NCBI RefSeq assembly: GCF_003574135.1
Contig: NZ_AP018341.1
Coordinates: forward strand, 2,703,740 to 2,767,739
DNA: 64,000 bases
Reading direction: 5' to 3'
DNA from: a cyanobacterium endosymbiont of Rhopalodia gibberula
GTDB taxonomy: Bacteria > Cyanobacteriota > Cyanobacteriia > Cyanobacteriales > Microcystaceae
Position numbers and translations under genes: made by a program. Below the pieces are notes generated by a model that did not search any database, was not told the DNA's origin, and saw nothing but the letters and a program-made list of their open reading frames with translations. Position 1 is the first letter of the stretch; each line of letters starts with the position of its first letter. This document shows, piece by piece, positions 42,131-51,029 of the stretch.

Positions 42131-44270
42131 TATGATTTCCCCTCCTACGGGTTAAACTAAAAAAGTTGAGTGAGTTACCAAAAATACTGGGTTAACTTTG
42201 TCACAATTACTATTCTACGTAAATCTTGGATCCTAATGTTGAAGGATGGATTGAAAATGAATTAGTAAAGAATTAACTCAAAAACAAGCTAATTTACTAA
42301 ACAATGGCTCACAGGCTGGGTTGCTGTCTATTGGTAATTCCCGACCTAAGTTTTCTAACCGTTGTTAGGCGTAGACGAAAGTCTTAGGATTTCGAGCTAA
42401 TTACACTAAACCTATATCAACTTCAAATCTCCTAGTGTATAAAACTACCATTTAAGTCACACCCAACACTGTGTACAGAGCAGTATTTTTGTTAGATCTG
42501 ATAGGTTATGCTCAATGAGGAGCTAAGTCCATACGATCACTGTAATTGTTCTCAAAAAATTCTATTTTTATTTTACTTAGGGATTTGGAATTAGAAGTTG
42601 AAAGTTCGTAAAATTAAGTTCATGTTAACATATTCTAACATCAAATCATCACTTGTGTGTGAGCAACTTTTGATCTTAAGTTTATTTAAATAAATATAAA
42701 AAAATAATTTCACATTTTTAAATTTGAGTAATTAGGGTTTAACTAAAATTAGTTTAGTTAGTTTTTTAGAAAACTTATTTAAAGGGAAAATCACCAAACC
42801 AACTTTCTTTAAAAATATTTAAAGTAGAAACTTACTTGAAGACATTTAATAAGCTTTTATATAATGTCCTTCACTTTATATTATATCTGTCTCCAGACTA
42901 GTAATTAGCATGAAAAATAAATATATTTTTATTGTTTAAGCCCGGCTTTATCTGACTCACCTAATATGTACTTAGTACTTATTATCAATAATCACTACAT
43001 CTATTCCTCTGTATCTGAAGTATTTCTCAATTTTATACACTTATTCATTTATAAATCACGAAACTTACTTTTTAAAAGTTACCTATTAATAGGTATAAAA
43101 TTTGGACTTTTACTTAGATTTTATATTCCTATTCTATTTATTTTTTCTCTTTTTATTTTAAAAAATTATTTCTATTCTCTAATTTTTAGCTATCTATCAA
43201 TTTCTAAAATTTACAAAATAAATTGTATTTTTACAAGTAAAATATCCTTATATTTTTGTTGCTTTCTAAATAAAACTGTCTTCCCTGATCTGCCGAGAAT
43301 AAATTCTGCTTTTCTCTATTTTTAAAAAGTTTTAGATAATTGTAGTCTGTTATAAGTTTTTTATTTTTTCTGAGATATATTCAATATACTTTATTCAGTA
43401 TAAGTTCTCTTCTTTTCACTTTTCGGATACTCCCATAGTCTTTCTCTTCCTCGACTAATTCATCTAAGAATTGCTTTTCTTATGTTCTTATTCTCGTTTG
43501 TATCACGATAAATTACTCTGACGACATCTTGTTTAAGAATTAGCATTTTACTTAAATCAATAGTAACATAACGGACAGTTACGTCAAGAATCTCTACTCC
43601 TATTTTATAACAACTATGTTAAGATTTAGCTCTAGCAATTACAGGTAAAATGATTAGTTAATATTAATTATTATTAAAATTATAGTAATAAACTATAGTA
43701 GTATAATTTATACATTTTCTTTTATCTCAAAAATAAGTTAATATGGCATTTTTACAGTAATTAAAATTATCTTATTTATAAGATAATTTTATTATTTTTT
43801 ATTCAAAGTAAGAAAATTAACGCTAAACTATAAGCGATTACTGAATAACTTAGTGTTATTGCTAATAATCAAAGAAAGATAAGTACGAATTTCTTTAACA
43901 TGCCATCTTCATAATCAATCAAGTAAACAACGATCTTGGTGGCTGACCTATAGGGTAGGGCGAGGAATTTTATAAAAAAATAGATTTGCAGAACAGCTCA
44001 CACTAGTCCAGCAATAGAAGTAAAGAACAAAGAGATCTATAATGCCATAGGCAAGATTAAATCTGTCGAGTCGTCATGTCTAGTAGAGTGAGAAATAAAC
44101 AAGCTTCAAAATCTGTATATTGTCTACATAAATAACATTACCGTCATTACTATAAATAAAATTAGTAAATGTAGAAACTAATCTTTATTGATCAGGAGAA
44201 TAAATCAATAAAGTTATTGTTAGCTTTTAAATAAAAATCAATAGCAACAATTATTACTATTGATTTTGTA
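42131..44270. other. 2.1 kb AT-rich spacer, largely decayed
   Basis: No intact gene. A plus-strand open frame of 119 codons (42966-43325) is made of Ile, Leu, Phe, Tyr and Ser, as expected from AT-rich DNA by chance. A minus-strand segment at about 43440-43645 reads GVEILDVTVRYVTIDLSKML then KQDVVRVIYRDTNENKNIRK and may be a remnant of an unrecognised gene. Confidence 0.5.
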
Positions 44271-45629
44271 TCAAGCAAAACTCAAAAATTGAGAATGACT
44301 TGCCCGAATAGAAAACTGATTAAGATAAACCAGAGGTTGACTCGGATCAAAAGGTCGTCCATCTATGAAAGCGTTAGTAGGTTCAGATTTCATTGATTCA
44401 CTAGGAATTTTAATATTTAGGACTTTAGCTACTTCTTTATAGATAGAAATAGGATAAATTCGATCTAAGATTCTATCAGCATCTTTCGGATAACTAGTGG
44501 TTTCCAGTTGATTCCAACGAATCATTTGGGTTAGCAACCATACAGCATGAGAACGCCAAGGATAGTTAGCATGATCGGGAATCTTAAGATACGGAGTATC
44601 TTGATAGTGAAAAATAGTAAAGTCGGGAATCTCTACTAATTTACTGTTAGAAGCGTTATTAGTATAAGCATACTGTCCATTTAAAGTTGGTTCAATTAAA
44701 GTTCTATTCAAATTTAAATATTTACTTTGAGCTAATATTTCGGTCATTTCTCTGTGATGACGCTGGTGATCGCAATATTGACAGGCTTCTAATAACGCAG
44801 CCATTAAAGACCGTGCAGTAACAGGATGTCTTCTCACCCAACCATCCATAGCAGCTAAAATCTTATTAGGATGTCCTCGCCAAATTTCTCGACTAATGTT
44901 GATAATAAATCCTATATTTTCAGTAATTGCAGAGCGCGTCCATGGCGCTGAAATACTGTAGCCTTCTATCATTTGTGCTTGTAATTTATAGCTCAATTGG
45001 TTGGACTGAAATTCTAATAATTCTACCTCACGATCAGGATCAACTCCCATAGCTGCTAACCAATAACGTAATAAATAGGCATCCATTGAAATTGGGGAGT
45101 CTATAGCAAAACGAGTCTGGCTACTACCTCGAATATACCGTCGAAAACTTCTTTCAAAATCCCTAAAATCGTTATAATTTAGGGAAGGACGTAAGCCTTC
45201 TTCCCAAGCTTTCTTAGTAAAAGTAATGGCACTACCATTCAAATTAAGATTCATTAGGGAAATCAGGGAGGCTTTTTGTTTCCCTAACTGTGCAGACATG
45301 GGTAAAGCAAAGGGAGCTTGTGCAGCATCTAATTGCCAGCTCAATAAACCCTTTTCAATTGCTTCCCAGGAAGATCGACGTTTGAGTGTAACTTCTAGTC
45401 CATAACGCTCAAAAAAACCCTTTTCTTGGGCAATAATCAAGGGAGCAGCATCAGTAGTCGGAACAAACCCTAGAATTAGGTTAGTTTTTTCCAATGAGCC
45501 AAATTTATTGTTGGGGTTCAATGAAGTTTCTGACGAACGAAGGAAATCTAGATTACCTTGAGCGCAAGCAGTTATTCCTAAACTAGCCGTTCCTAGGCTG
45601 CCATATTTGATGAATTGACGACGCTTCAT
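44271..45629 (-). CDS. NrtA/CmpA-family ABC transporter substrate-binding lipoprotein, orphan
   Basis: 452 residues. The N-terminus has a twin-arginine-like KRRQFIKYGS, a hydrophobic core and a lipobox GITAC (Cys22), so it should be lipid-anchored outside the inner membrane. The body begins TNLILGFVPTTDAAPLIIAQ EKGFF in the manner of nitrate (NrtA) and bicarbonate (CmpA) receptors, and length is typical. It is divergent from both in the ligand-facing parts. No permease or ATPase gene adjoins. The substrate cannot be assigned; nitrate, bicarbonate, taurine-like or thiamine-precursor ligands are all used within this superfamily. ATG at 45629. No GTA-N8-TAC NtcA box was found upstream. Confidence 0.78.
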   Translation of the reverse strand: MKRRQFIKYGSLGTASLGITACAQGNLDFLRSSETSLNPNNKFGSLEKTNLILGFVPTTDAAPLIIAQEKGFFERYGLEVTLKRRSSWEAIEKGLLSWQLDAAQAPFALPMSAQLGKQKASLISLMNLNLNGSAITFTKKAWEEGLRPSLNYNDFRDFERSFRRYIRGSSQTRFAIDSPISMDAYLLRYWLAAMGVDPDREVELLEFQSNQLSYKLQAQMIEGYSISAPWTRSAITENIGFIINISREIWRGHPNKILAAMDGWVRRHPVTARSLMAALLEACQYCDHQRHHREMTEILAQSKYLNLNRTLIEPTLNGQYAYTNNASNSKLVEIPDFTIFHYQDTPYLKIPDHANYPWRSHAVWLLTQMIRWNQLETTSYPKDADRILDRIYPISIYKEVAKVLNIKIPSESMKSEPTNAFIDGRPFDPSQPLVYLNQFSIRASHSQFLSFA

Positions 45630-45982: not shown

Positions 45983-47364
45983 ATGGTTAATAGAACCATA
46001 GAAAACTTAGTTATTATTGGCTTAGGTTCGGTAAGTTACACCACATTAATTTACGCTGGACGGGCTAAAGGGCTAAATTAAGACCTATTATTTTTGAATA
46101 TTTAAAAGTGGGAGACATTTATGGTGGATAACTAATAACCAGCACAAAAGTAGAAAAGTTTTCATGGTTTTATGAAGGCATTATCTGCCCTGAATTAATG
46201 GAATGGATGAAGGCAAAAACAAAACGTTGGGGAACTCAATGTTATACTAAATATGTGGAAAAAGTTTATTTAAGTTAGCGTCTTTTCGAGGTATATTCGA
46301 CCGAACAAAAAATATTAACCCATAGTCTAATCGTTGCGATAGTGGAGATCCCTAAACACTTAGGAATTAGTGCCGAAGAGGAGTTTTAAAGTCGGATAAT
46401 TTCTGTCTGTGCTATCTATCTTTGGTGGAGCAACCCCGATGTTTAGAAGTCAAGAACTAGCAATTGTGGGAGGTGAAGATACCGCAGCAGAAAAAGCTCT
46501 TTATTTAACTAAGTGCGACTCATTGATTCATATCCTAGTCTATCGAAAGGAAATGCGGGCTAGTGAAACTCTGCAAAATCGAGTCTTCAACCATTCAAAC
46601 ATTATCATTCACTAGAATAGAGAAGTAGTGGGCGTCATCTCTAGTGGTTCTAAACTCGGAAGGCTAACAATTCGTAACAATGAGATGGAAGAAAAGGTTA
46701 GAGGGTTATTTTATGCTGTCTGTCATACCCCCAATACAAAATTACTTAAAGGACAGTTAGAACTCAATAATGCTGGTTATCTTTTTGTTAACACAGAAAC
46801 AATACAAACCAATATTAAAAGGGTTTATACGACTAAAGACGTGCAAGATCATGAATATCGTCAAGCAGTGATCGCCGCCGGAATATATTGTATAGCAGCA
46901 TTAATTACACAACGATGGCTATCAGCGCATAACCTTCTTAAAGAAGATAAGATAACTCCCAAAACGCAAGAAGACAAATATCAAAAAGAATCAGCTTCTG
47001 TTATTTATATAGCAGAAATTTTTAATATTAAGGAGACTTGTAATGTGAGAAGATATATTTCACCAAAATTATTCTATAAAAACAAATGCTTAATTGCGGT
47101 TAAATATATCTATCCTAACTGCAGCCAATATCATGTTATAAAACTAATTTAAAATAAGTTGGTTGTTCCATATAAGGGAGAAATATATTCTATGAAAGTT
47201 AATATCGAAGTCAATCCTGAAATTGCTCATAACTTTCAGGTAATGGGGATTACTACTGTTAAACTCTTCAAAGATAAAGAATCACTTGAATACATTGATG
47301 AAATTTAAAAAAAAGTTAGTATCGTCCAGTTATTAATGAATACTTACTTTCTGAAGTTAACTAA
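45983..47364 (+). pseudogene. NADPH-thioredoxin reductase C (TrxR-thioredoxin fusion), degraded
   Basis: A nearly full-length but broken copy of the fused enzyme that reduces 2-Cys peroxiredoxins in cyanobacteria and chloroplasts. It opens at ATG 45983 with VNRTIENLVIIGLGSVSYTT, where the FAD loop GSGPAG has become GLGSVS. Stops and frameshifts follow (around 46078, 46127, 46276, 46387, 46613). The reductase dithiol site CAxC at 46408-46419 reads CAIY because of a local rearrangement. The NADPH domain (LAIVGGEDTAAEKALYLTKC) and much of the C-terminal FAD part are still readable. The thioredoxin domain is present (VKYIYPNCSQYH; NIEVNPEIAHNFQVMGITTV) but its CGPC site is CSQY (47120-47131). It ends in EYLLSEVN at 47364, four bases before lnt. 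Confidence 0.88.
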
Positions 47365-49036: not shown

Positions 49037-51029
49037 TAATTAAATTTAAAGGATAATCAATACAAATAAACACTAAAATTGATGCATAATTACAACAATA
49101 TCTTAGTTTTTCAGTCATCTATAATATCACAGCTTGCATTAATAGTGTTGCTAAATAAGGTTATGTTTATGTTTGGACAAAGTTTAATCATCTAATATAG
49201 ATGACTTAAATTTACTCTTTAATCCTAACTACTACTTGCTACTTGGTAGTAGAGAGCATGACTTAATGTTTTAAAGTTAATAATTAACTAACACTTAACT
49301 TTTGAGCAAAGAAACAAAAAAATGCGTACAATGATGTATTAAAGATAACTAATAAGGTCAAATACTCAGACAATGTCTGTTTTAATTCAAGATTAAAATA
49401 GTTAAAGATGTTGTATATTCTTTTTAGTTTATAAAAATATTTTTTCAGGCTGACTTGATATTAAAATTAGTAATTAATTCATTTGTTCTAGCTTTGGATA
49501 CCCATTTACTAAAAGTTGTTAATTTTGTAAAAACAGCTACTAAAAAAATAGGGCTAAAAAAGATTAAATGATTTTCTAAAAATAGATCTTCTTATTATAG
49601 TCTGTAAATAAAATATAGAAATTAATAGTCTTTTGAACAAAAAAAATAATATCACACCTTAAAAATTTTAAAAAAATCTTTAAAAGCTAAAATTAAATAT
49701 ATAGTTTTTGGTGAATTTAGAGTAGTTTTGAAGTAAATCAAAAGAAAAGTTGCAGTCCCATTGGGTAAAGATTAACTTTTATAAAAAGCCAGGTCGATAA
49801 AGGTTATATGTCTATATATTTGTCAAACAAACTAATAACGGAAGCAAACTGATAGTATTGAAGTCTAAGAATAAATAGAAAATGGCTGAATTTAGTTTAT
49901 GAACGTTGAGCTAAAGATGTAGAGCTATCTAAAAAAGGTCTTATTGATAGAAGATGATGCCGGATAACATCATAGCAAAAAGTAAAAATTTCTTGAGGAA
50001 ATTACTAAATAATATTTGATAGCTGACTATCAATAATTAGACCCAACATAAAGGTTATGGATACTAGTAGATAAGTCTTGATTAAACTACTCTAATTTTT
50101 AAAAAGGATATGGCTATCTTGTCTAGTAAGAAACGATTTTATACTTTATTAGATGATAAAAAAAACTTAAATAATACTTTAATAAATTAAAAATACTAGT
50201 CATAAAAAATTGTTAGAATTGAATAAAAAAAATATGTTTTACTTAATTCTTAAGTAAATTAAAGTAAAAAAAGAAACTGAATTAGGTGTATGAAACATCA
50301 TTAGTTCTTCAAAAAAAATTAAAAAATTTTTAATAAAAACTAAGACTAGGTATTAGTACTATTTAAGGTTACTTAATTCATTGTACTTAAAAATAGTGAA
50401 ACAATCAGACTTCAGATTAAAGAAATTATTATTTATTTTGACCGAGGAATAGAGTAATAAACGGTATAATCTACTAATTAGAAATTAAAGTTGATAAAAA
50501 GTAGAACTTATATATAGGTTCCTAAATCATATTAATTTTTATCTCTTAGATTTTCTTACTTAAGATATAATTAATTATATACTACACTATCAGTTTTGTT
50601 TTATAAATAAAGTTTACGTGACTACTATTTATAATTAAAATAAGTTTTATACAAAATATTTCCCTATTTTTATAGTCTTTGATAGTTTAAAAATAAGTAA
50701 ATCTTAGTTTTTTTAAGTAAGTTTTTTTTTAAAAAACTTTAAATAGTACTGTATTTTTTTATTTTTGCTAAAAAATATTATCTAATATAGAAAATAAATT
50801 GATTTAAAAATCTTTTGTTCTTTTAGATAACAAGAAGGAATTATAGATAATAATAAAAAACACAAATCTGAATATAAAAATATCGATATGGTTAATAAAT
50901 ACTCTTTCAGGTTAACAGGTATATTATCTTTTTTAGATAGAGGATATAGTGAAGTATTTAAATACTTATCAAGTTATATAAAATATAATTGTGATCGTTG
51001 TCACTCTTACATAAAGGTCATAATCTTAA
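49037..51029. other. 2 kb AT-rich spacer with a transposase remnant
   Basis: No intact gene between lnt and znuA. The second ISL3-type transposase remnant occupies about 49900-50520. A 69-codon open frame (50888-51097) overlaps the znuA start out of frame and is probably chance. No Zur-type box (TGATAATCATTATCA-like) was found upstream of znuA. Confidence 0.6.
49900..50520 (+). pseudogene. ISL3-type transposase remnant, copy 2
   Basis: Near the 3' end the plus strand reads IIIYFDRGIE, two stops, TV, stop, STN, stop, KLKLIKSRTYI, which follows the ISL3 C-terminal pattern YFDRGTTNG.VEGINN.LKLIKR.AYG codon by codon. Upstream parts align with copy 1 at 36280-36600. It is more eroded than the other two copies. 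The left limit at 49900 is approximate. Confidence 0.6.

Follow-up and report, generated by a model that had tools for sequence, protein, structure and literature searches.

NTRC, an NADPH-thioredoxin reductase fused to a thioredoxin, draws on NADPH and has 2-Cys peroxiredoxin as a known client. A damaged copy of its gene lies in the genome of the Rhopalodia gibberula spheroid body (RgSB; G000), and this locus raises three questions: is the gene dead, when did it die, and how could its client be recharged without it? The window that we analysed is the whole stretch of 64,000 nucleotides taken from the single contig (3,020,309 bases) of RgSB, a cyanobacterial endosymbiont without photosynthesis according to the available part of PMC5638926. 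We compared it with the spheroid body of Epithemia turgida (EtSB; G003) and with two further reduced genomes, G001 (3.07 Mb) and G004 (2.48 Mb), which branch with RgSB and EtSB in the tree and which, from their reduced size and this branching, we take to be spheroid bodies as well; these four genomes are referred to below as the four symbionts. On eight intact genes, not all of which were included for every genome, RgSB and EtSB are sisters (support 96), and the node of G001 has a support of only 67. The nearest large-genome relative of the symbionts among the genomes compared is G002 (5.2 Mb); its terminal branch of 0.10, against 0.27 for Cyanothece sp. PCC 8801 (G006), places it far nearer the spheroid bodies. 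Two genomes of 1.4-1.5 Mb, G013 and G021, are presumed from their size and family to be UCYN-A.

Aligned to the intact gene of G002, the relic runs from an ATG at 45983 to about 47364, with 74% DNA identity over 1365 bases, and lnt adjoins the gene in both genomes. Relative to G002, it carries indels of +8, +4, -12 and -1 bases, three of them frameshifting, and seven premature stops at codons 47, 96, 133, 207, 390, 442 and 446 of 461, followed by a near-terminal stop. The reductase and thioredoxin domains are recognisable in their order, but no single frame holds them. This bears out the first-pass annotation, which had called the region an NTRC pseudogene with multiple stops and frameshifts. 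With the G002 NTRC as query, a whole-genome protein search of RgSB returned the relic in two pieces (E 8.0e-101 for residues 137-454 and 1.2e-34 for residues 26-142). TIGR01292 matched two open reductase pieces (E 6.1e-18 and 2.1e-12, both far below the whole-protein cut-off, as pieces should be), and PF00085 still matched the thioredoxin part (E 1.1e-5), with two stops inside the match. A second NTRC, for which the annotation had suggested a search, was not among the five matches listed of six (the sixth being weaker); these five were the two relic pieces and three small thioredoxins.

The altered FAD loop and thioredoxin site lie where they had been reported: GLGSVS lacks the last glycine of GxGxxG, and neither CAxC nor CGPC is left. 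The reductase dithiol had been read as CAIY, and this reading is indeed present, but it spans the 4-base insertion, so that the second cysteine has not simply been exchanged for tyrosine. We conclude that the NTRC gene of RgSB is dead, and see practically no room for doubt. The adjacent lnt is intact, as had been stated. Elsewhere in the window, positions 42131-44270 and 49037-51029 form long AT-rich stretches (about 27% GC), in which the longest listed open frames have 119 and 69 aa; these stretches are possibly further decayed genes. Two more Pyr_redox_2 matches, each with three stops, were found at positions 602375-602746 and 1390553-1390873 of the RgSB contig, and are perhaps pseudogenes of other flavoenzymes.

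Table 1 Features of the NTRC locus of RgSB (positions within the window)
Feature	Position	Strand	Basis or remarks
NTRC pseudogene (NADPH-thioredoxin reductase fused to thioredoxin)	45983..47364	+	Alignment with the intact G002, G006, G005 and G016 genes; whole-genome protein search; TIGR01292 and PF00085 matches
Degenerate FAD loop, GLGSVS for GSGPAG	46019..46036	+	Sequence, alignment
8-base tandem duplication, frameshift	46062..46077	+	Sequence, alignment
Stop at codon 133 (TAA)	46387..46389	+	Same codon is TGA in G001, TAG in EtSB and TGG in G004
Former reductase dithiol CAIC, read as CAIY beside the 4-base frameshifting insertion	46408..46419	+	Sequence, alignment
Stop at codon 207 (TAG)	46613..46615	+	G004 is stopped here too; G001 and EtSB are not
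Thioredoxin dithiol, originally CGPC and here CSQY	47120..47131	+	Cys to Tyr at codon 383 common to EtSB
lnt, apolipoprotein N-acyltransferase, intact, 555 aa	47369..49036	+	Same neighbour in G002 and the three other symbionts; constrained (dN/dS in text)
NMT1-like ABC substrate-binding protein gene	44271..45629	-	Open in all four symbionts as far as the loci reach; constrained (dN/dS in text)

All four symbionts carry a broken NTRC at the same site, flanked by the substrate-binding protein gene on one side and by lnt on the other; the NTRC of G002, which likewise adjoins lnt, is intact. The frameshifting indels number four in G001, seven in EtSB and four in G004, where the 3' part is also gone and alignment is difficult. 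Calculated over 322-445 of the 461 codons per comparison, with gapped codons removed, the dN/dS of the relic was 1.48, 0.85, 1.01, 1.12, 0.82 and 0.97 for the six symbiont pairs. The bootstrap intervals of five pairs span 1; that of RgSB-G001 (1.07-2.11) is above 1, partly because the dS of the relic is low in this pair (0.15 vs 0.29 for lnt). For the same six pairs, the dN/dS was 0.24-0.35 for lnt and 0.14-0.26 for the substrate-binding protein, and NTRC itself gave 0.14 for the intact pair G002-G006. This shows that the relic has no remaining protein-level constraint and is drifting neutrally.

The lesions also point to common descent. At the 274 sites that are invariant among the four intact NTRC genes, RgSB, G001 and EtSB have 24 changed states in common (23 replacements and the stop at codon 133), six of which occur in G004 too, and the relics of RgSB and EtSB have the 12-base deletion and C383Y in common. 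We conclude that NTRC was dead or unconstrained in the common ancestor of RgSB, EtSB and G001, and probably before the split from G004 as well. Judged by these shared lesions, one ancestral loss is very likely. Counting against it, the stop at codon 133 is a different one in each of the three genomes, and G004 has Trp there. Repeated hits on Trp codons do occur, since codon 207 was hit in both RgSB and G004, where the stop is probably recurrent, so that the stop at codon 133 could be convergent. The relic's own tree pairs G001 with G004 (support 51).

Separate, later losses after the symbionts had parted, the need for the enzyme having gone in all of them at about the same time, would fit the repeated hits on codon 207, the missing codon-133 stop of G004, and the fact that most frameshifts and stops differ among the four genomes. 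They would not fit dN/dS values that are close to 1 for every pair, nor a stop at codon 133 common to three genomes together with 23 common replacements at conserved sites, and we regard them as improbable. We thus retain one ancestral loss, which must be old, because the relic is common to four genomes, its dN/dS is near 1 in all pairs, and three genomes have the codon-133 stop. This overturns the earlier view that the loss was fairly recent, which had been based on the length of what remains. Slow decay accounts better for that length; pseudogenisation is slower in RgSB than in the genome of the Epithemia turgida symbiont, as described in the available part of Nakayama and Inagaki (PMC5638926). 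The destruction of both redox sites, also noted earlier, is true of RgSB, but since the G001 relic keeps CAIC despite the upstream stop at codon 133, the loss of the active-site cysteines looks like later decay and not the first hit. The relic is an ordinary, old pseudogene of a kind expected in these genomes.

The client of the lost enzyme is kept, as is the rest of the thiol redox system: genes for 2-Cys peroxiredoxin, thioredoxin, ferredoxin-thioredoxin reductase (FTR), ferredoxin and a short FNR are present and open in the symbionts. FTR and 2-Cys peroxiredoxin were the other two genes that the first-pass annotation had proposed to look for in RgSB, and both were found. Constraint was computed for the 2-Cys peroxiredoxin, TrxA, a second thioredoxin, FTR and FNR. 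Each symbiont has one PF10417 peroxiredoxin, vs two in G002, G005 and G006. The retained protein is of the typical 2-Cys type, with both cysteines present, a dN/dS of 0.02-0.05 among the symbionts and 6j13, a 2-Cys peroxiredoxin, as its best PDB match; it has the GGIG and YF motifs, which we take to be the marks of the overoxidation-sensitive, NTRC-type class of 2-Cys peroxiredoxins. The second PF10417 peroxiredoxin, of 215 aa and, by length and match, probably a 1-Cys form, gave no match in the symbiont genomes. Each of the four encodes three small thioredoxins with WCGPC and has ferredoxin-family matches and a single FNR match. FTR-beta is present in 39 of 39 genomes and FTR-alpha in nine of nine. 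The dN/dS of FTR-beta was 0.06-0.17 among three symbionts (RgSB, G001 and G004; EtSB was outside this comparison), and that of FTR-alpha was 0.04-0.90 among the symbionts on about 90 codons, a loose and poorly shown constraint. RgSB also encodes a glutathione reductase that scores above the TIGR01424 cut-off. Catalase-peroxidase as a replacement peroxide remover was rejected, PF00141 being found in none of nine genomes vs 5 of 14 control genomes. With PF02195, a weak model, frames that look sulfiredoxin-like by their motif were seen only in G005 and G006, below the cut-off, and nothing was found in the four symbionts; G002 gave five matches to this model, none noted as sulfiredoxin-like, one of the five having been inspected.

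Did the loss of photosynthesis cause the loss of NTRC? By protein search, NTRC occurs in 24 of 39 relatives (in pieces in G032), is a relic in the four symbionts and is absent from the remaining 11, namely the two presumed UCYN-A genomes and nine genomes of 3.3-6.2 Mb that have FTR-beta. Outside both symbiont groups, the same search thus found no NTRC in 9 of 33 relatives; judging from their size, these nine are presumably free-living and photosynthetic. Since these nine genomes are sizeable, NTRC is missing repeatedly in the order, also where there is no sign of genome reduction. The loss of photosynthesis may have contributed to the loss of NTRC, but the missing NTRC by itself is no proof of this, and such a cause is doubtful. 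The relaxed need for photosynthetic redox control that had been proposed therefore stands insofar as the organism carrying the relic is non-photosynthetic; the nine relatives without NTRC, the conserved 2-Cys peroxiredoxin and the retained FTR speak against it, as does the use of NADPH by NTRC.

A second change concerns FNR. The FNR of G002 has an N-terminal CpcD domain (PF01383, E 3.2e-23), a domain that binds phycobilisomes, and the FNR of Cyanothece sp. PCC 8801 aligns along the full length. In all four symbionts, the FNR frame opens only at an internal methionine, the counterpart of G002 residue 108, and the region upstream of this frame holds a broken remnant of the CpcD domain. PF01383 is absent from the short protein. 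The FNR core is constrained (dN/dS 0.04-0.12 among the symbionts). The presumed UCYN-A genomes G013 and G021 have the short FNR only, with no CpcD relic visible. The short form may be a mere consequence of phycobilisome loss. In Synechocystis, short FNR mainly oxidises NADPH and reduces ferredoxin, as far as the available text of PMC9144156 goes. For the symbiont of Epithemia clementina, the part of PMC11070190 at hand describes a retained ferredoxin-NADP reductase and proposes a flow from NADPH to ferredoxin that feeds nitrogenase; the term FNR is absent from the main texts of PMC11070190 and PMC12903740, and the trimming of FNR was not found there.

Taken together, these genes suggest how the peroxiredoxin might be served. 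NTRC was very probably inactivated in the rhopalodiacean endosymbiont lineage at a time when at least three of the four sampled genomes had not yet diverged; it has drifted neutrally since, and its client 2-Cys peroxiredoxin was kept. NADPH supplied by the pentose phosphate pathway would reduce ferredoxin through the short FNR, ferredoxin would reduce thioredoxin through FTR, and thioredoxin would reduce the peroxiredoxin, the whole chain presumably running without light. An old ancestral loss of NTRC, with peroxiredoxin recycling moved to ferredoxin, is the overall reading towards which we lean; for the ferredoxin route taken by itself, we put the chances at about even. In vitro, most of the Anabaena thioredoxins tried could be reduced from NADPH by a chain made of FNR and FTR from Anabaena and ferredoxin from spinach (PMC7242069, available part). 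The same part of that paper reports that in Anabaena heterocysts, which are also without PSII, FTR and Trx-m1 are lower and thioredoxin targets are partly oxidised, which argues against FTR working well without light. Also counting against the route, the 2-Cys peroxiredoxin of Anabaena is better served by NTRC than by TrxA (PMC9025218, in the portion available), the constraint on FTR-alpha is loose, and glutathione reductase is kept.

The last point leads to another way of recycling the peroxiredoxin, by glutathione reductase and glutathione with glutaredoxin in place of FTR. The glutathione reductase of RgSB, above its family cut-off, speaks for it; however, all thioredoxin and FTR parts are kept, and cyanobacterial 2-Cys peroxiredoxins are described as dependent on thioredoxin or NTRC (available part of PMC9025218), and we consider this route unlikely. 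Still less likely is a supply of NTRC or thioredoxin by the diatom host: for UCYN-A, an import of 6-phosphogluconolactonase, which it lacks, from the host has been described (PMC12903740, available part), but the spheroid body keeps three thioredoxins of its own with intact sites. That the lesions are assembly or sequencing errors, or that a 174-aa frame open in RgSB (46628-47152) is a remnant protein in use, can be dismissed, since the three other genomes have different lesions in NTRC, and the stretch, read in the G002 frame, is interrupted by a stop or a frameshift in every sister and shows no constraint (dN/dS near 1).

The ferredoxin route, which we continue to prefer, could be part of a wider change. 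FTR normally acts as a light sensor and is the light-linked system proper. It is conceivable, and we put this forward tentatively, that thiol redox control was rebuilt around one ferredoxin pool, with the NADPH enzyme dropped, FNR trimmed and FTR turned into a light-free gauge of NADPH. If so, nitrogenase and peroxide defence would share the same ferredoxin. The presumed UCYN-A genomes show a matching outcome (NTRC missing, FNR short, FTR kept), which, under this tentative reading, would have been reached apart from the diatom symbionts. The pattern worth keeping is that the reductase is lost, the client is kept and FNR is short. It provides a test case for the recycling of peroxide defence in a nitrogen-fixing proto-organelle that has no photosystems, and for whether FTR can work without light.

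That a spheroid body contains a thioredoxin reductase pseudogene is already known: Table 2 of Kneip et al. 2008 (PMC2246100) gives a 'thioredoxin reductase' pseudogene, sbp15*, for the spheroid body of Rhopalodia gibba. It comes from another host species and is not called NTRC, and the available part of that paper does not discuss its sites, age or redox partners. It is very probably the same gene as the RgSB relic, a match by description and not by sequence, because NTRC is the sole near full-length thioredoxin-reductase match among the matches listed for G002, G005 and G006. This table entry was the only literature found on the loss of NTRC or thioredoxin reductase in cyanobacterial endosymbionts, and the words thioredoxin and peroxiredoxin are absent from the main texts of PMC5638926, PMC11131595 and PMC12903740. 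What is worth following is the retained client together with the trimmed FNR, and two known systems provide the comparison. The NTRC of Anabaena sp. PCC 7120 has the same domain make-up as the intact G002 protein, but it is a working enzyme; when it is knocked out, ROS increase and peroxiredoxin stays overoxidised for longer (available part of PMC4988983). Synechocystis is without NTRC, and TrxA is reported as the main donor to its 2-Cys peroxiredoxin (PMC9025218, in the part available), so that a donor other than NTRC is needed there as in the symbionts; in contrast to them, Synechocystis is photosynthetic, and its 2-Cys peroxiredoxin is of a kind not reducible by NTRC, whereas the symbiont protein has NTRC-type motifs.
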